A program made the translations under genes and the position numbers. Below are positions 8 through 13,146 of a stretch of DNA of 46,607 bases, in pieces. The number at the start of each line of letters is the position of its first letter. The stretch's first letter is position 1. The notes beneath the pieces were generated by a model. The model ran no database searches. It had not been told where the DNA came from and worked only from the letters and a program-made list of their open reading frames with translations. Location: the IMG/VR virus record IMGVR_UViG_3300007609_000037, positions 1-46,607 of that record; one strand, written 5' to 3'. The stretch is from a virus.

Positions 8-733
8 CTACTGTGCAGCTTTTTGTGCTTTTGCTGCACCATCGTAATCCGCAGCAGTAATGCCACGACGAGTTAGCATAGTCTTAACACCTCGAACAGT
101 TTTGCCAACCGTCTCTGCGATTTGCTCTACTGTAAGATCTGCAATGTTTTCGAGAGAAGCTAGTGGGTCTTCTTTCGCTGCAGACTTGGTGTTTTCCTGA
201 CGAGGAATCGCTTCGATCGCACCTGAGCGAAGTAGGCTAAGAGCCTTACCACGAACAGAGCTTACGCTACGACCCATTGCTTCGGCAATAGCCTCTACAA
301 ATGCGCCAGAGTTTACCATCTCAACAAACGTAGCTTCTTCAGCATCTGTATAAGTCTTTACAGCTTCTACCTTAGGAGCCGGCTTGATGTGGCCAGTAAG
401 TTCCATTGACAGAATCTTGCCTTGAATCTGCTTAGCAGAAAATGCGCCATTTTCGAAGTACTGAGCAACTTCAGCATAAGTGTAGCTGCCGCTGTTATCT
501 TCTACGAAAGTAGCAAGAGTAGCTGCTTGATCTTCTGAGAAGGCTTTACCGCCTGCTGCTGATGCAAGTTCTACTTCGTAGCCCATCTTGCGAAGCTTGC
601 TAGAAACTGAGCGGGCTGAGGTATCCAGAGTCTCTGCAGCGCCTGCTACAGTTGTTTGTGATACGGGGGTTTCGTCACCTACGTATGAGGTGAGTTCGGT
701 TGTGCGTTCGTCATTCCACTTAGGGACTGCCAT
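8..733 (-). CDS. Multi-HTH phage DNA-binding protein
   Basis: A 241-residue protein built from repeated short helix-turn-helix-like units. The first, near residues 5-55, has a SANT-like WNDERTTEL start followed by SARSVSSKLRKMGYEV. Similar units recur near 60-110, 130-170 (GRSVSSVRGKALSLL) and 195-230 (GKTVRGVKTMLTRRGI). No catalytic motif is visible. I infer a DNA-binding, perhaps nucleoid-like or regulatory, role. The ATG overlaps the ligase C-terminal stop as TAATG, with GGAG eight bases upstream, so the two genes are translationally coupled. It shares its helix pattern with the smaller HTH/SAP-like proteins elsewhere in the window. Confidence 0.7.
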   Translation of the reverse strand: MAVPKWNDERTTELTSYVGDETPVSQTTVAGAAETLDTSARSVSSKLRKMGYEVELASAAGGKAFSEDQAATLATFVEDNSGSYTYAEVAQYFENGAFSAKQIQGKILSMELTGHIKPAPKVEAVKTYTDAEEATFVEMVNSGAFVEAIAEAMGRSVSSVRGKALSLLRSGAIEAIPRQENTKSAAKEDPLASLENIADLTVEQIAETVGKTVRGVKTMLTRRGITAADYDGAAKAQKAAQ

Positions 734-1500
734 TATATATTCTCCAAAATAAAAGTTTTAAGGTTACTTACAATAAGTACGCCAGATTCTCTGGCTTTCT
801 GGGTTTTAGATGATTCTATACCACTTTCGTTTACTAGAATCTCTACATCTTTTGTTAAACTGCTCTTGACAGTATATCCTAGGGACTCAAGAGTTTTTGT
901 AGCTTCAGCCTTCGTTTTGTAACTATTTAATTTGCCTGAGATACAAACTGTACCCTTAGGTTCAACATTAACATTACTAACGGCTTTGCGAAACTTGAAG
1001 TCAAAAGGAAGTGTTCCGTCATACCAAGAGTAGAACTCTGTTTTTAGCCAAGAAACTAAACTTTCTGTCGCTTTATTTCCGAGACCGGCTTTAGCGCAGC
1101 TATCGTAGCCTATGTCTTCAATTCCATTGCAGACTTTTGATAATTTTTCTGCGGCAGTTTTGCCGATCAACGGAATACTAAAGGCAGGAAGTAAAGTTTC
1201 TAAGCCAACTTCTTTAGAGTTTTCTATCTCTTCGAACAGTTTATGTCCTAACTTCTCGGAGGAGAGCCTCTCACAAATGTCCGCTAATTCGAGTTGATAA
1301 ATCTCCTCTAAGTCGGTCAACCCGAGCTTAGTAATGGAGGCAGGGCCAAGCCCTTTAATTTTTAGCGTTTTTGCGAAGTGCTCCAGCTTTTTAGCTGATT
1401 GAGAATGACAGTTAGAATTTCTACAGTAAAGTAGATGGTTGGACCATTCAAGTGACGAGCTGCACGAAGGGCAATGTGTCGGGGCTTGAATTTCTGTCAT
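733..1500 (-). CDS. ligB: NAD-dependent DNA ligase, C-terminal subunit (zinc finger, HhH, BRCT)
   Basis: This 255-residue protein is the second half of a bacterial LigA. It has a four-cysteine zinc finger (C10, C13, C26, C31), helix-hairpin-helix repeats around 45-150 (KIKGLGPASITKLG, IPLIGKTAAEKL), and a BRCT domain from about residue 180 to the end (GTVCISGKL). It lacks the adenylation and OB domains, which are in the gene upstream at 1554-2498. Ligases split into subunits A and B are known from phage T5. The subunit probably binds nicked DNA and associates with the catalytic half. It has its own promoter at 1529-1557. Confidence 0.88.
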   Translation of the reverse strand: MTEIQAPTHCPSCSSSLEWSNHLLYCRNSNCHSQSAKKLEHFAKTLKIKGLGPASITKLGLTDLEEIYQLELADICERLSSEKLGHKLFEEIENSKEVGLETLLPAFSIPLIGKTAAEKLSKVCNGIEDIGYDSCAKAGLGNKATESLVSWLKTEFYSWYDGTLPFDFKFRKAVSNVNVEPKGTVCISGKLNSYKTKAEATKTLESLGYTVKSSLTKDVEILVNESGIESSKTQKARESGVLIVSNLKTFILENI

Positions 1501-1528
1501 TCGGGTTCTTCCTCAAAGTTGAAAAGAT

Positions 1529-2510
<982 letters not shown>

Positions 2511-4697: not shown

Positions 4698-4863
4698 AAT
4701 CTTTATCCTCAAATAACCAAGCATAAAGCTCTACTTCGGAAACGAGACCATCATAGTCTTCCGTTTCACCTAAAAACTCTGCGATTTCACATACTATATC
4801 TACACTTACATCGTGCTCGTCTGCGAGTTTTCTCATGTACTCCAGTCTTTTTTCGCTAATCAT
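4690..4863 (-). CDS. 57-residue acidic protein, unknown
   Basis: It starts MISEKRLEYMRKLADE and contains VDIVCEIAEFLGET and EVELYAWLFEDK, an acidic alpha-helical peptide of unknown function. Its ATG overlaps the end of the 26-residue peptide gene (GATGATTAG), and its stop overlaps the start of the DUF5664 gene at 4697, so all three are coupled. Confidence 0.6.
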   Translation of the reverse strand: MISEKRLEYMRKLADEHDVSVDIVCEIAEFLGETEDYDGLVSEVELYAWLFEDKDYE

Positions 4864-4936
4864 CTTCAATTACCATCCAAGTTACCAGAATACTAGCACA
4901 CATAAGCAATCCTGCTGTGTTTAGTAAAATTTCCAT
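4856..4936 (-). CDS. 26-residue single-span membrane peptide
   Basis: It reads MEILLNTAGLLMCASILV then TWMVIEDD. One hydrophobic helix covers most of it. A GGAAAAG ribosome site precedes the ATG, and it is the first gene after the 4958-4986 promoter. Function unknown. Confidence 0.55.
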   Translation of the reverse strand: MEILLNTAGLLMCASILVTWMVIEDD

Positions 4937-6250: not shown

Positions 6251-6279
6251 ATTATACTAAAATGGAGATGTTTTGTCAA
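6251..6279 (-). promoter_or_regulatory. Sigma70 promoter for the 6226/thyX operon
   Basis: On the minus strand, TTGACA (6274-6279), 17 bp, TATAAT (6251-6256). It overlaps the last codons of the lysozyme gene. Confidence 0.87.
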
Positions 6280-6722
6280 GTAACATTTTCCAACTTAGTC
6301 ATTAAGCGTTCTGCGCGATTTGGTACTTGTTTATGCCAACGGCTATCCCTACCCTCTTTCGCCGCTTGCTTCCAATCTTCCTTGATTAATGCTGCTTTCA
6401 TTTTCTTGAACTTTCTCATACGAGTCCGCCCCATATTAAACATCATATTAACCAAGACCTCGTGGACGTCTCTAGGCCAACTAGAGAACCTTTCTCCGTA
6501 TATAGCTTCACAATCTCCAATTGCTGTACAGAGGTCTTTTTCGAAGGCTGCTCTAACTCTTTTTTCTGATACTGCTGTTCCAATTGGCTCCCAGTATTCT
6601 TTATCTTCTCGGGTGATTCTATGCCCGATACCAAACGTGGGATAACCGAGATGATCGATATAGATGACATACTTTACTCCTTCGTCTATCTCTAGCTGCT
6701 TTTGAATTCTATCTACGTTCAT
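6276..6722 (-). CDS. T4-type lysozyme (GH24 endolysin)
   Basis: A 148-residue muramidase. The catalytic triad spacing of T4 lysozyme (E11, D20, T26) is reproduced by E14, D23 and T29 in the segment DEGVKYVIYIDHLGYPTFGI. Family helices VLVNMMFNMG and the C-terminal RAERL are present. It cleaves peptidoglycan at the end of infection. There is no signal peptide, so it needs a holin; the gene upstream (6719-7081) is a good candidate and overlaps it by four bases. Confidence 0.92.
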   Translation of the reverse strand: MNVDRIQKQLEIDEGVKYVIYIDHLGYPTFGIGHRITREDKEYWEPIGTAVSEKRVRAAFEKDLCTAIGDCEAIYGERFSSWPRDVHEVLVNMMFNMGRTRMRKFKKMKAALIKEDWKQAAKEGRDSRWHKQVPNRAERLMTKLENVT

Positions 6723-7081
6723 TTTTTACCCATAAATCCTACTGCTGCTCGTACACCAAAAGATGCTGCAACAATTACGCTTAGTGTATATTGATACCAC
6801 GCAGGCATCTGCTCTAGTGCCTCGAAACCTGCGTGTACATAGTCCACGGTTTGAGGAAAGAAGCATAGTATCATAGGAATACTAAAAAGAAGTGTTAACC
6901 ACTCATCTTTCCAAGAAGTCCCAGAGTTGCGTGCCATGATTGATTCCCAATCTGCCTTACTCTGAGAAGCTGTTATCATTACCTGAGCTTCAGCGTCTGC
7001 CTTAGCTTTCATTTTAGCATTTTTACCTTCTAGCCAGGTTTTTCCCAACCCCGCTATAGATCCTACTATTCCGCCCCACAT
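6719..7081 (-). CDS. Holin candidate, two or three membrane spans
   Basis: A 120-residue protein with an amphipathic N-terminus (GGIVGSIAGLGKTWLEG), a charged middle (about 20-58), and hydrophobic segments near 60-82 (WLTLLFSIPMILCFFP) and 96-117 (YQYTLSVIVAASFGVRAAVG). The layout matches phage holin-type proteins with a SWKDEW motif before the first span. It overlaps the lysozyme gene by four bases, the expected holin-endolysin coupling. A hole-forming role is inferred from position and topology. Confidence 0.7.
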   Translation of the reverse strand: MWGGIVGSIAGLGKTWLEGKNAKMKAKADAEAQVMITASQSKADWESIMARNSGTSWKDEWLTLLFSIPMILCFFPQTVDYVHAGFEALEQMPAWYQYTLSVIVAASFGVRAAVGFMGKK

Positions 7082-7083
7082 AA

Positions 7084-7227
7084 TTAATCTCTAGTCTTAC
7101 GACTCTTGTGAAAAGGGTCTTTCGACCCTCTCACGTATTGTACAAAGGTTATAGCCATTATACTCCATATATATCCTGCAGCTAATAGCGTCATTACTAT
7201 CGCTAAATCTATTATAAGTTTTTCCAA
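7084..7227 (-). CDS. 47-residue membrane peptide, TTG start
   Basis: From TTG 7227 (GGAG seven bases upstream) the peptide has one hydrophobic span (LAIVMTLLAAGYIWSIMAI) and a basic tail (SKDPFHKSRKTRD). It overlaps the end of the redox gene 7212-8447 by 16 bases and ends two bases before the holin ATG. It could be a second lysis membrane protein (antiholin or spanin-like) or belong to the redox block; the sequence does not decide. Confidence 0.55.
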   Translation of the reverse strand: MEKLIIDLAIVMTLLAAGYIWSIMAITFVQYVRGSKDPFHKSRKTRD

Positions 7228-8447
7228 GTAAATGCTCCAAAAAACATTTCGTCTTCCGACATCTGTCCCCAAGGTACGAGTCTGCTGGGGTCTGGATTCA
7301 TTGGGTTGTCTGCTGAGTTGTCAAACCAACCCTCCACATGTAGCTTAGTTCCTTTCGGCAAAAACTTAGGCTCACGCCAAGTATATGAAAGTTGCCAAGC
7401 ATATTCATAGCGTGGAATGTCAATAAGTTCTTCTACCTCACCATCTGGATAGTATGCTGTTGCTCTCATTGCCTTGCCCCGAAAGTGCATATGTGGCAAG
7501 AAGGTATGCAACATTACATCATTCTTTAGTACAACATCAGCCTCTTGTTTGAAGTTGGGATCATATGGTGGAATTGGTGTCCACTTATCAGGGAAGATAC
7601 AAGCACAGTCGCCTGCCATTCTTTCTTCTGGGACTACACCTTCATCGTGAAAGTATAAACCAATTCGTGCTTTGTCAGTTCTAGGAGTACCGTCAGGCGT
7701 ATAATGTAGTTGTAGATTTACTTTACTGCCTGCCCGCAATAAACCGCCTGTGTTCTCATCATAGAAGTCTGGATCACCTCCAGGAACATAGGCACTTACA
7801 CTAGCATAGTCCATATTTTGCTGTTCACCGCCTTGTGTACCAAGAATGTTTCTGTTTCTTTCTCCTGGCACTGACACTGAGTTAAGCATATGGTGCATTA
7901 CAGTAGGCTCAGAAGGAAGAAATTCTGAACCCCGTAGCCACTTATCTTCTGTGAGACCTAAGTCTACACCTACATAACGATAAGGAATAGCACTGGGGCC
8001 TGCAGGAATCTCTTGTGGCGGTACTTCAACAATCATATCAGGCTCACCGTGAACCCACTCAGAAGTAGAGTATACTGTCTCAGTGAGAGGGTCTCTATCC
8101 CCTTCTACAGGTGCGCCCGCATTGACCCACTCTACAATCGTATCCATCTCTAGATCGCTGAGTGTTCTATGGTTCACAATCACATCAGCATACTTGCGAT
8201 TGATCTGTCCTGGTGGCATATGCAACGTAGTGACTGCTTCTTTAATGGCAGGTGCAAATGCTTGAAGCATTCGATAGTCTGTCATAGCCCAAGGTGCAAT
8301 ACCTCCCTCTCTATGACAGCTCTGACACTGCTCTACAAAGATAGGTGCTACATTTTCTGCATAATCAATTTCTGCTCCATCAGCTCGTGCGCCTGCTAAC
8401 AGCACCATCAAACTAAAGGTCCACACAGATGCGTTTAGTCTACTCAT
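7212..8447 (-). CDS. Secreted cytochrome c-copper monooxygenase-like fusion 1
   Basis: From ATG 8447 (411 residues; overlaps the cytochrome c stop) it starts with a Sec signal peptide (hydrophobic 9-20). A monohaem c domain follows: C41-x2-C44-H45, with M77 in HMPPG as likely axial ligand. From about residue 130 the chain resembles the PHM/DBM copper type II monooxygenase fold: H185-H186 (MHHM) and H248 (LQLHY) for the CuH site, H319-x-H321 (PHMH) and M401 (SEDEM) for CuM. All six copper ligands are visible. Predicted periplasmic; the reaction and substrate are unknown. In eukaryotic relatives ascorbate supplies electrons; here the fused haem could. I find it very unusual for a phage. Confidence 0.85.
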   Translation of the reverse strand: MSRLNASVWTFSLMVLLAGARADGAEIDYAENVAPIFVEQCQSCHREGGIAPWAMTDYRMLQAFAPAIKEAVTTLHMPPGQINRKYADVIVNHRTLSDLEMDTIVEWVNAGAPVEGDRDPLTETVYSTSEWVHGEPDMIVEVPPQEIPAGPSAIPYRYVGVDLGLTEDKWLRGSEFLPSEPTVMHHMLNSVSVPGERNRNILGTQGGEQQNMDYASVSAYVPGGDPDFYDENTGGLLRAGSKVNLQLHYTPDGTPRTDKARIGLYFHDEGVVPEERMAGDCACIFPDKWTPIPPYDPNFKQEADVVLKNDVMLHTFLPHMHFRGKAMRATAYYPDGEVEELIDIPRYEYAWQLSYTWREPKFLPKGTKLHVEGWFDNSADNPMNPDPSRLVPWGQMSEDEMFFGAFTWKNL

Positions 8448-8811
8448 CTTTTGATATCTCCTTAATGTACTTTGCCATGAGAGTAATTTCATCATCGCTT
8501 AAAGTTGCTGCCTGACCAAACATAATACCGCTCATATCGCCACGGTGAATCATATTCTTGTAGTCCTGCAATGCTTCTGTAATTTGATCTTCCTCTAGAA
8601 AACTAAGTCCTGGGAATCCTGGTTTACCTTCTGCTTTATTACCGTGGCACGCTGCACACGTCTTCCACTTCATCTCTACGGAGCTAAAGTCTGCTTCTTG
8701 TGCGTATAGTGTTCTTGCACCCATCAATACTACAAATTGAAAAAATAAAAGTGCTACGAATCCTATTGCGCAACCCCATAGACCTTGTCTTGCTTGCTTT
8801 ACTGTTGGCAT
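8440..8811 (-). CDS. Secreted or membrane-anchored monohaem cytochrome c
   Basis: 123 residues. An N-terminal hydrophobic segment (12-30) may be a signal peptide or anchor. A small class I cytochrome c domain follows: haem site C52-A-A-C55-H56 and likely Met ligand M93 or M97 in GDMSGIMFGQ. The final helix LSDDEITLMAKYIKEI is typical of the family. It probably shuttles electrons in the periplasm, and an obvious hypothesis is that it feeds the two copper fusions on either side. GGAG lies seven bases before ATG. The host must provide haem and the Ccm machinery. Confidence 0.88.
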   Translation of the reverse strand: MPTVKQARQGLWGCAIGFVALLFFQFVVLMGARTLYAQEADFSSVEMKWKTCAACHGNKAEGKPGFPGLSFLEEDQITEALQDYKNMIHRGDMSGIMFGQAATLSDDEITLMAKYIKEISKDE

Positions 8812-8981
8812 TCATCTTCTCCATCAATAACTGCTTGGGATTGTTCTATCCACATCTGCATAGTTTTATTTGTTTTATAATTAGACTCTTTAGCTGCTTC
8901 ACCAAAAGTGTCAATAACCCACTGAGCGCAGTCTTTGCTGCGCCCGTGGTAATTTAGTACAGTATTAATCTCCTGTTCCAT
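8799..8981 (-). CDS. 60-residue soluble protein, unknown
   Basis: A small hydrophilic protein starting MEQEINTVLNYHGRSKDC and ending IDGEDECQQ, with no signal peptide or CxxCH. Its start overlaps the end of fusion 2 (8965-10251) and its end overlaps the cytochrome c start, so it is coupled within the redox operon. Function unknown. Confidence 0.55.
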   Translation of the reverse strand: MEQEINTVLNYHGRSKDCAQWVIDTFGEAAKESNYKTNKTMQMWIEQSQAVIDGEDECQQ

Positions 8982-10251
8982 ATCTCTCCTCTTTCAACTG
9001 CGCAAAGCCTTCCTCGTCTAAATGTGTGATAGCAAGCCAAGCATGAGTCATTTCGTCCCCGGTGCGAGATCCACCCATTACATACATATCTGGGTCAGGG
9101 TTATTTGGATTTTCACTTGTGTTATCATACCATTGCTTGAGAATGATAACTGCCCCTGCCGGAATTAAGGGCGCACTATCTGGAGCATACAGGTGACTGT
9201 GGTGCCACGTAGCACTCCATTTAGAAATCTGACTTACCTGTTCGGTGCGACCTGTTTCTGGATAAAAGATTTCAAGGCTTGCTGCATTCATACGCAAGTG
9301 ACCGTGAGGCTGAAAGCTATCTAGTCGCACAGGATGATCGAATGAATGAAAGCCCTGTGTCATAGCATATCCATTGGGAGGAATAACCAAGTCGTCTTGA
9401 TCCCCGAGGCGATATAAACTCAAATCTTGTTTGTATTTCAGTTGTTCGCTTTCCTCTTCGGTGTATAACCAGAGACCAATCTCTACCACGTTGTCTTTTA
9501 TAACTGAACCTGGTGCCATTGCCCCAAGACCGCCTGGGAACATGTGAATATCCCAACTGATTTGTGCGTTTGCTGGGATTGTACGACAAACTCCTTCTGG
9601 TACAATCTCTCCCCACTTTCCCATAGCGTACTCAGTGAGCATGCCTTCACGCCCTTCTGCTGTAAGAATACTAGAGTTAGCGTGATGCACTACAGACTTC
9701 GCTGCACCTCGTGGCTTTACTTGTACTGCTTTTATACAGCGATCTTCTGTAATACCACTAGGTACTAGGTGCTTGTGCCATAGATCATTGCCATTTGCAG
9801 GAATATCAATTGCTACACTAGGAATGATTGCATTGGGTGCGCCAAAGTCCGCTTCGAAATTCCATGCTTCTGGGTCTTTCATAGTGGGGGCTTGTACTAT
9901 TGTATCAGGATCTCCATAAACTGAGCCTTCATTTACCCAGGCTACTACAGTGTCAATATCTTCTTGTGCTAGTCGCCAATCACCTTGTAAGTCTTGAATA
10001 CCAATGCCGTGATCGTAAGCATAAGGAGGCATTTCTCGTGATGCTACTTTCATAGCAATCAGTGGAGCCCATGGACGGACTTGCTCGTAAGTTTCGAAAC
10101 TCATTGGACCGATGCCGCCTTGACGATGACATACTACACAGTTCTCGTTAATAATGTTCGCTACTTCTTGTGTATATGTCTGGGAAAAGGCTTTAGTGCC
10201 TATAACTAGGCCTACGCCAAAAGCTATTGTGTGTACTATTAATTTTTTCAT
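8965..10251 (-). CDS. Secreted cytochrome c-copper monooxygenase-like fusion 2
   Basis: 428 residues, paralogous in layout to the 7212-8447 product but clearly diverged. A signal peptide (about 1-24, ending KAFSQ) precedes a c-haem site C38-x2-C41-H42 with M74 in EMPPY as probable axial ligand. The copper domain keeps H189-H190 (VVHH), H236 (WDIHMF), H316-x-H318 (PHGH) and M401 (TGDEM). The shared tail motif NPxNPDP appears in both. It is first in the redox operon. A terminator lies just upstream (10261-10291) and I see no promoter between it and the ATG, so it is probably transcribed by read-through. Substrate unknown. Confidence 0.85.
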   Translation of the reverse strand: MKKLIVHTIAFGVGLVIGTKAFSQTYTQEVANIINENCVVCHRQGGIGPMSFETYEQVRPWAPLIAMKVASREMPPYAYDHGIGIQDLQGDWRLAQEDIDTVVAWVNEGSVYGDPDTIVQAPTMKDPEAWNFEADFGAPNAIIPSVAIDIPANGNDLWHKHLVPSGITEDRCIKAVQVKPRGAAKSVVHHANSSILTAEGREGMLTEYAMGKWGEIVPEGVCRTIPANAQISWDIHMFPGGLGAMAPGSVIKDNVVEIGLWLYTEEESEQLKYKQDLSLYRLGDQDDLVIPPNGYAMTQGFHSFDHPVRLDSFQPHGHLRMNAASLEIFYPETGRTEQVSQISKWSATWHHSHLYAPDSAPLIPAGAVIILKQWYDNTSENPNNPDPDMYVMGGSRTGDEMTHAWLAITHLDEEGFAQLKEERYGTGD

Positions 10252-10260
10252 AGATTCTCC

Positions 10261-10291
10261 AAGAAAAAAGGGTCGAGATTTCTCCCGACCC
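10261..10291 (-). terminator. Strong intrinsic terminator before the redox operon
   Basis: In the minus direction, a nine-base-pair stem (GGGTCGGGA with TCTCGACCC, one G-T pair), GAAA tetraloop, then six T. It lies between the 36-residue peptide gene and the ATG of fusion 2 (10251), just after it. Confidence 0.88.
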
Positions 10292-10300
10292 CGTAGGTCT

Positions 10301-10420: not shown

Positions 10421-10837
10421 CTAATTTATTGATATGGTAATGGGGCGATCTTCTTCTGGAATTTCTTCCTGAAGATCAATACAAAGCAATCCCCTATTCA
10501 TATACGCTTTTGAAAGTTTAATATGATCGCCTACTCGGAAATTGCGTGTAAAACATTTACCACTCAATCCCTTATAGACATATGTTTCATCCGGATTTTC
10601 TGTTTGCTTTGTAGTGCCTTTTACGCTAAGTACATTTTTATGTAGCGAGATTTCGATATCCTCTTTATGCCAGCCAGGTACTGCGATTTCAATTCTATAA
10701 TTGAAATCTCCTGCCTTTACGACATTATAACGAGGATAACCTCCATCTACTGTACTTGCAAAGAAGTCATCTTGTAAGCGGTCAAACCCAAGAAAAAATT
10801 TCGGCAGGTCTGCCATAGACAATTTATGTGTTGTCAT
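10421..10837 (-). CDS. Small heat shock protein Hsp20 (alpha-crystallin domain)
   Basis: 138 residues, IbpA type. The alpha-crystallin domain spans about 35-125: YRIEIAVPGWHKEDIEISLH, then LSVKG, the L9-like loop, and GLLCIDLQEEIPEEDRP. It has the short N-terminal arm LPKFFLGFDRL and a C-terminal ITISIN (I-x-I type) tail. It prevents aggregation of unfolded proteins; such genes are common in marine myo- and cyanophages, where a role in virion assembly is suspected. AGGAG precedes ATG. Confidence 0.93.
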   Translation of the reverse strand: MTTHKLSMADLPKFFLGFDRLQDDFFASTVDGGYPRYNVVKAGDFNYRIEIAVPGWHKEDIEISLHKNVLSVKGTTKQTENPDETYVYKGLSGKCFTRNFRVGDHIKLSKAYMNRGLLCIDLQEEIPEEDRPITISIN

Positions 10838-13048: not shown

Positions 13049-13077
13049 ATTATAGTCATTTTTGACCAGGATGTCAA
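13049..13077 (-). promoter_or_regulatory. Divergent sigma70 promoter, leftward
   Basis: On the minus strand, TTGACA (13072-13077), 17 bp, TATAAT (13049-13054). It faces away from the rightward promoter at 13118-13146. Confidence 0.87.
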
Positions 13078-13117
13078 GAAAAATTTTTCTTTGCTTTGGA
13101 CTTCGCATATTTTGTCC

Positions 13118-13146
13118 TTGACAACCATCCTCAAATTTATTATAAT
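13118..13146 (+). promoter_or_regulatory. Divergent sigma70 promoter, rightward
   Basis: TTGACA (13118-13123), 17 bp, TATAAT (13141-13146), consensus. Predicted start near 13153, next to the first ATG (13154). Confidence 0.88.

Follow-up and report, generated by a model that had tools for sequence, protein, structure and literature searches.

The 46,607-bp IMG/VR record IMGVR_UViG_3300007609_000037 (the window, meaning the whole stretch of DNA analysed) belongs to a tailed phage and carries a group of redox genes that we refer to as the CCM module. Two of these genes, CCM1 and CCM2, each encode a predicted c-type haem domain fused to a domain resembling the dicopper monooxygenases PHM and DBH, and a small cytochrome c gene, cytC, lies between them. 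We propose, with a probability of roughly 0.6, that the CCM module is an auxiliary metabolic module providing haem-fed, O2-using dicopper monooxygenases in the periplasm of the infected cell. The open reading frames (ORFs) concerned are as follows:

8965 to 10251, minus strand: CCM1, 428 amino acids; a putatively secreted cytochrome c joined to a PHM-type dicopper monooxygenase domain, assigned from the ORF, its invariant ligands and the PHM fold
8799 to 8981, minus strand: ORF of 60 amino acids without a haem motif, overlapping both CCM1 and cytC
8440 to 8811, minus strand: cytC, 123 amino acids; a predicted monohaem cytochrome c with CAACH and an N-terminal hydrophobic segment
7212 to 8495, minus strand: CCM2, 427 amino acids from the first ATG; the same two-domain architecture as CCM1

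The preliminary description of this locus had reported overlapping haem-protein genes beside lysis and Hsp20 genes, and the ORFs are found there, all on the minus strand. It had also proposed a three-gene operon. CCM1, cytC and CCM2 are present, but a fourth ORF, encoding the 60-residue protein, separates CCM1 from cytC. The few-base overlaps between the end of one gene and the start of the next, running from CCM1 through this ORF and cytC to CCM2, fit a single transcript. The 60-residue protein is kept at 83-94% identity in several related phages, and neither Pfam nor PHROGs yielded a convincing family for it. CCM2 may instead start at the ATG at 8447, the start adopted in the preliminary description, giving a protein of 411 residues.

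The haem domain of CCM1 contains CVVCH (C38, C41 and H42) with M74 as the distal ligand, while its predicted copper ligands are H189, H190 and H236 at the CuH site and H316, H318 and M401 at the CuM site. CCM2 has CQSCH (C57, C60 and H61), distal M93, and the ligands H201, H202 and H264 (CuH) and H335, H337 and M417 (CuM), in the numbering of the 427-residue protein. All twelve copper ligands named in the preliminary description are thus present, although its CCM2 numbering (H185/H186/H248/H319/H321/M401) is offset by 16. CCM1 and CCM2 share only about 27-30% identity, and every ligand is nonetheless aligned. Conservation of the six copper ligands and the CxxCH motif is 100% across the distinct phage sequences, 67 of CCM1 and 33 of CCM2; CxxCH is present in all distinct copies, and the distal M74/M93 is invariant. 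An alignment of 26 sequences, comprising both paralogues and cellular relatives with identities down to 25%, contains 27 invariant columns, ten of which are C57, C60, H61, M93, H201, H202, H264, H335, H337 and M417 of CCM2. A hydrophobic N-terminus precedes the haem motif in all distinct CCM2 and cytC copies and in 64 of the 67 distinct CCM1 copies. The copper ligands of rat PHM include H107, H108, H172, H242 and H244 (PMC6123673). The spacing of the ligands in CCM2 (62, 133 and 80 residues) is close to that in the rat enzyme (64, 134 and 70 residues).

Ligands would also be conserved for copper binding alone, so the proteins might be non-catalytic, either secreted haem and copper binders that chelate or buffer metals or components of the virion. 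However, the ligands of the haem and of the O2 site are conserved together, the genes persist as pairs, and in the siphovirus lineage of the window the module has no link to structural genes. We consider a non-catalytic role very unlikely.

AlphaFold2 models of CCM1 and CCM2, made without templates, were compared with the PDB using Foldseek. For each model the first 31 matches are PHM or DBH structures, all at a probability of 1.00, with best E-values of 1.7e-11 for CCM1 and 2.7e-8 for CCM2. Target-normalised TM-scores are mostly 0.5-0.6 for PHM, and the matches that follow the first 31 drop to low TM-scores. The CCM1 matches include 1yi9, the structure of a M314I variant of rat PHM; M314 is a further copper ligand of that enzyme. 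A search of the BFVD viral models returned low-TM matches only. Fold and conservation support a predicted convergence of the six ligands of each protein on two copper sites.

PHM was not reached by sequence alone, whether by phmmer or by profile searches of PDB sequences, and a profile that included cellular relatives matched ResA-like redoxins through the N-terminus of those relatives. The link to PHM therefore rests on the fold search, the ligands and the relatives. Cellular relatives pass the Pfam cut-off for Cu2_monoox_C in 35 of 59 genomes of the putative host family and in none of 14 control genomes. Together, these three lines of evidence bear out the fusion of cytochrome c to a PHM/DBM-like domain that the preliminary description had proposed for both proteins. 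PHROGs contains no family for CCM1, CCM2 or cytC.

The third haem protein had been described as a small monohaem cytochrome c with CAACH. With a Pfam Cytochrom_C score of 32.9 bits against a cut-off of 21.3, cytC is a real monohaem cytochrome c, and it is a candidate electron donor to its neighbours. Eleven distinct full-length copies were found in phages. In eight host genomes only weak matches to cytC were seen, the best at 36% identity. The three-gene order CCM1-cytC-CCM2, which the preliminary description had singled out as worth seeking elsewhere, recurs in L037, an unrelated myovirus-type contig whose cytC is 84% identical, and the genes therefore appear able to move as a cassette.

The right side of the window encodes TerL, a portal protein, a head protease/capsid gene, a tape measure protein and minor tail proteins, which identify it as a tailed phage. 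The left side encodes ThyX, a split NAD-dependent DNA ligase and lysis proteins. On the minus strand the order is Hsp20, CCM1, the 60-residue ORF, cytC, CCM2, a small membrane protein, phrog_2524 and a T4-type lysozyme, and the features flanking the module are:

10421 to 10837, minus strand: Hsp20 small heat-shock protein (Pfam HSP20, 1.1e-15; phrog_432), the upstream neighbour
10269 to 10292, minus strand: terminator-like hairpin with a 10-pair stem and a T run, in the gap from Hsp20 to CCM1; a consensus match only
7084 to 7272, minus strand: one-helix membrane protein of 62 amino acids, putatively holin-like
6719 to 7081, minus strand: phrog_2524 membrane protein (E 2.8e-36), in the lysis neighbourhood
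6276 to 6722, minus strand: T4-type phage lysozyme, the endolysin (Pfam Phage_lysozyme, 5.6e-8)

Lying directly upstream of CCM1, the hairpin may separate regulation of the module from that of Hsp20. Elsewhere in the window, the ligase gene (733-2498, minus strand) is split into two adjacent ORFs, 1554-2498 and 733-1500, which match different PHROGs, and two divergent sigma-70 promoters with perfect consensus matches lie at 13049-13146, between the left and right arms.

Relatives of CCM1 are encoded by at least 246 IMG/VR stretches and relatives of CCM2 by at least 115, of which the analysis covered the best 80 for each protein. Grouping the loci by flanking genes gave seven groups of at least two loci and four single loci, and therefore about ten unrelated phage neighbourhoods, which span siphovirus, T4-like, T7-like and >200-kb contigs. 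The siphovirus lineage of the window accounts for 13 loci. Elsewhere the module accompanies a T7-type DNA polymerase and primase-helicase (L142 lineage), SbcCD-like genes of the gp46/47 type (L072 lineage) or adjoining tail fibre genes (L037 lineage), and it also occurs on contigs of 217-340 kb (L030 and relatives). Upstream of the module in L030 (5531-9388), a CsgG-like lipoprotein and secreted proteins resembling curlin repeats were noted by eye; one of the curlin-like proteins was searched against Pfam and gave no match. Among the 69 non-redundant CCM1 loci whose downstream DNA is long enough, 54 have CCM2 alongside; 52 of these were counted directly, and in the other two the genes overlap by 61 bp. 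No relative of CCM1 or CCM2 was found by tblastn in 50,697 deposited phage records. The earlier remark that no phage operon of this kind is known therefore holds for deposited phages, but the module is widespread in uncultivated ones.

Where dS is not saturated, ratios of non-synonymous to synonymous substitution (dN/dS) relative to the window copies are 0.06-0.14, and the phage copies are under purifying selection. The genes thus combine the features by which phage auxiliary metabolic genes are recognised, namely host-type cellular homologues, location in bona fide phages and purifying selection.

One scan of named genomes with strict patterns returned only a contig from a Pseudomonadales metagenome-assembled genome (MAG), L153, from which searches of GTDB groups were started. 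Within a single GTDB family of Pseudomonadales, 104 of 137 genomes have CCM1 orthologues and 98 of 119 have CCM2-like proteins. The genes often stand in tandem, and a first loose look gave as many as 69 candidate frames in one genome. This family probably includes the hosts of these phages, and the phage genes apparently derive from this gene-rich group. The best cellular relative of CCM1 is 82% identical and of nearly equal length (L182:10736-12064). In a quick tree, the window CCM1 falls within a set of 16 phage and five cellular sequences (SH-aLRT 99). Three or more changes of the phage label across the tree indicate that CCM1 has crossed between phages and cells more than once.

CCM2 has a different history. 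The phage sequences form one clade apart from all cellular sequences, with support of 88 when L321 is included and 100 when it is left out, though the clade is set off by a long branch and long-branch effects are possible. Its closest cellular relatives are 48-53% identical, have the same haem and copper ligands (e.g. L187:958-2667 and L186:16301-18082) and carry an additional N-terminal AhpC/TSA-like redoxin domain that all but one of the phage proteins lack. The exception, L321 (534 residues), appears to retain this domain, judging from its length and the position of its haem motif, and gave no Pfam match. On these sequence comparisons, CCM2 is a phage-only lineage that followed a putative loss of the N-terminal redoxin domain.

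Close cellular relatives such as the 82% CCM1 could also mean that host DNA was misfiled as viral or that the contig was misassembled. L153 points the same way, as at about 4750-4881 its DUF1552-like host genes give way to a CCM1 truncated in its 5' part and a CCM2 of 81% identity; this junction is an assembly chimera or a recent transfer, and is probably a chimera. The preliminary description had itself held misassembly to be fatal to its proposal. The order Hsp20-CCM1-CCM2-phrog_2524-lysozyme, continuing as far as the ligase, is kept whole or in large part in L018, L023, L040, L122, L137 and L140, and L003 also has the same order as the window. These relatives come from different data sets, and their flanking genes have diverged to about 55%. 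No fewer than seven other viral contigs share this order, at identities of 55-98%, and this conserved synteny refutes misassembly. The single phage-only CCM2 clade, nearly all of it without the cellular redoxin domain, also argues for a viral origin, as do the genes that adjoin the module in other contigs: T7-type polymerase and helicase genes, gp46/47-like genes or those for tail fibres. We regard misfiled or misassembled host DNA as an extremely improbable explanation.

In the host family, CCM1 arrays adjoin a secreted protein of about 310 residues, often together with a CCM2-like gene and an MFS transporter, and some include GMC and gluconate-2-dehydrogenase-type genes. The 310-residue protein (L182:9554-10480 and relatives) accompanies CCM1 in 17 of 18 host regions; it has no Pfam match, was not seen adjoining the module in phages, and is a possible partner or chaperone of CCM1. 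CCM2-like paralogues beside CCM1 arrays keep the HH pair of CuH and have ARM in place of the HxH of CuM (L182:7412-9280, L353:11890-13707, L186:5049-6731 and others), which suggests that they may be one-copper or regulatory proteins. The closest relatives of phage CCM2 lie away from the CCM1 arrays, with an MMPL/RND-type transporter nearby in nine of nine regions and an FNR-type reductase in seven of the nine. Judging from these surroundings in cells, the substrates may be small organic or lipid compounds.

A substrate of the cell surface would fit some of this evidence. Oxidation of a lipid, glycan or receptor of the host, for example, could keep rival phages from adsorbing or make the envelope weaker ahead of lysis. 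The predicted export of the proteins, the presence of the module in unrelated phages with apparently shared hosts, its frequent position beside lysis or tail-fibre genes and the MMPL/RND-type exporter near the cellular CCM2 relatives are all compatible with such a role. However, nothing links the substrate to the cell surface, and host CCM1 arrays with MFS transporters, and in some cases GMC/gluconate-dehydrogenase genes, look more like the use of small compounds. Envelope modification is therefore unlikely in our view.

Under the reading that we prefer, that of periplasmic dicopper monooxygenases, CCM1 and CCM2 would be exported to the periplasm, where host Ccm would equip the N-terminal domain of each with a c-type haem and the C-terminal domain would hold two coppers, as in PHM and DBH. 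Electrons would pass from host periplasmic cytochromes, or from phage cytC where present, through the fused haem to CuH. CuM would then activate O2, and a C-H bond of a periplasmic substrate would be hydroxylated, or the substrate thereby dealkylated. Animal PHM and DBH enzymes are fed by ascorbate; the fused cytochrome is the obvious point of electron entry here and would replace it. All genes for metal and haem loading would be supplied by the host. The phages would have acquired their genes from Pseudomonadales hosts holding dozens of these enzymes and would retain them to maintain or redirect one host periplasmic oxidation during infection. We infer metal loading, the electron route, the O2 chemistry and the benefit to the phage on the basis of the parts and of known PHM chemistry. 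The evidence suggests that phages with the module change the periplasmic oxidation chemistry of the host during infection. Their gain could be nutrition or energy, which we favour, an electron sink, or a change of the envelope.

Genes for HesB/IscA (PF01521), NifU_N and an FNR-type reductase lie near the module in several myovirus-type groups (L037:13236-13595; L049:11253-11627; L059:6201-6923), and the phage FNR is 39-49% identical to that near a cellular CCM2 relative. These neighbours suggest redox housekeeping in infection and would suit an electron sink, in which the proteins would mainly drain electrons of host cytochromes to O2 with loose coupling to substrate; such a periplasmic, oxidase-like bypass would sustain respiration or redox balance as the host membranes fail. 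The plastoquinol oxidase genes of cyanophages would be a functional parallel, and both the fusion of haem to an O2-activating copper domain and the cytochrome c of some operons agree with such a role. Against this, a sink would not need the strict conservation seen for all six ligands of the PHM site, and the hosts have tens of diverged paralogues, as expected for diversity of substrates. We consider a sink a doubtful primary function.

Several observations count against the monooxygenase proposal or limit it. The CuH ligands of CCM1 are spaced by 46 residues, compared with 64 in PHM. Model confidence is moderate, with a mean pLDDT of 67 for CCM2 and 73 for CCM1, and is low around the haem. 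The Cu2_monoox_C score of CCM2 (11.3 bits) is below the Pfam cut-off of 23, CCM1 has no match to this family, and the N-terminal domains of both match Cytochrome_CBB3/Cytochrom_C below cut-off; we therefore name the window proteins PHM-like oxygenases, not members of the Pfam family. cytC is present in a minority of modules only and so is not essential. The cellular enzyme family is apparently uncharacterised, and the probable host family was assigned from homology and one MAG contig, JALRBG010000283. We put at about even odds a more specific scenario, a psbA-like case outside cyanophages: paired haem-copper monooxygenases, widely shared by sipho-, podo- and myoviruses of one aquatic Pseudomonadales group and with CCM2 now phage-specific, oxidise a periplasmic compound on which the hosts depend.

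PHM and DBH, the type II copper, ascorbate-dependent monooxygenases (PF01082/PF03712), share with CCM1 and CCM2 the matching fold and the order and approximate spacing of the HH...H, HxH and M ligands. CCM1 and CCM2 are only about 10-15% identical to them, have an N-terminal c-type haem domain instead of using ascorbate, fall below the Pfam cut-off, and are bacterial and phage proteins predicted to be exported. The uncharacterised redoxin-cytochrome c-Cu2_monoox_C proteins of Pseudomonadales are the closest relatives of CCM2, with the same ligands, and differ by their N-terminal AhpC/TSA-like domain. Cellular CCM1 orthologues sit in tandem arrays beside the 310-residue secreted protein and MFS transporters, unpaired with a phage-type CCM2. 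The phage genes also point to a host physiology that is apparently uncharacterised, in which each genome encodes dozens of exported haem-copper oxygenases. As compact, conserved genes that probably encode soluble proteins, the phage versions could offer a route to the chemistry of a whole bacterial family.

No report of PHM-type enzymes or cytochrome-PHM fusions in phages was found in the open-access papers searched. Viral genes for photosynthesis and for nitrogen or sulfur oxidation have changed views of phage control over host energy metabolism. A dicopper monooxygenase that carries its own cytochrome and occurs in phages with different types of tail would add another enzyme class to these. 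Oxidative auxiliary metabolic genes of marine viruses include amoC, nirK and norB (PMC8115048). Like the CCM module, these are host-derived genes for copper or haem enzymes of respiration or oxidation, but they belong to other enzyme families and none encodes a PHM-type dicopper enzyme or a haem-copper fusion of this kind. By comparison with these systems, we rate the CCM module as a new enzyme class of auxiliary metabolic gene, and an unusually widespread one.

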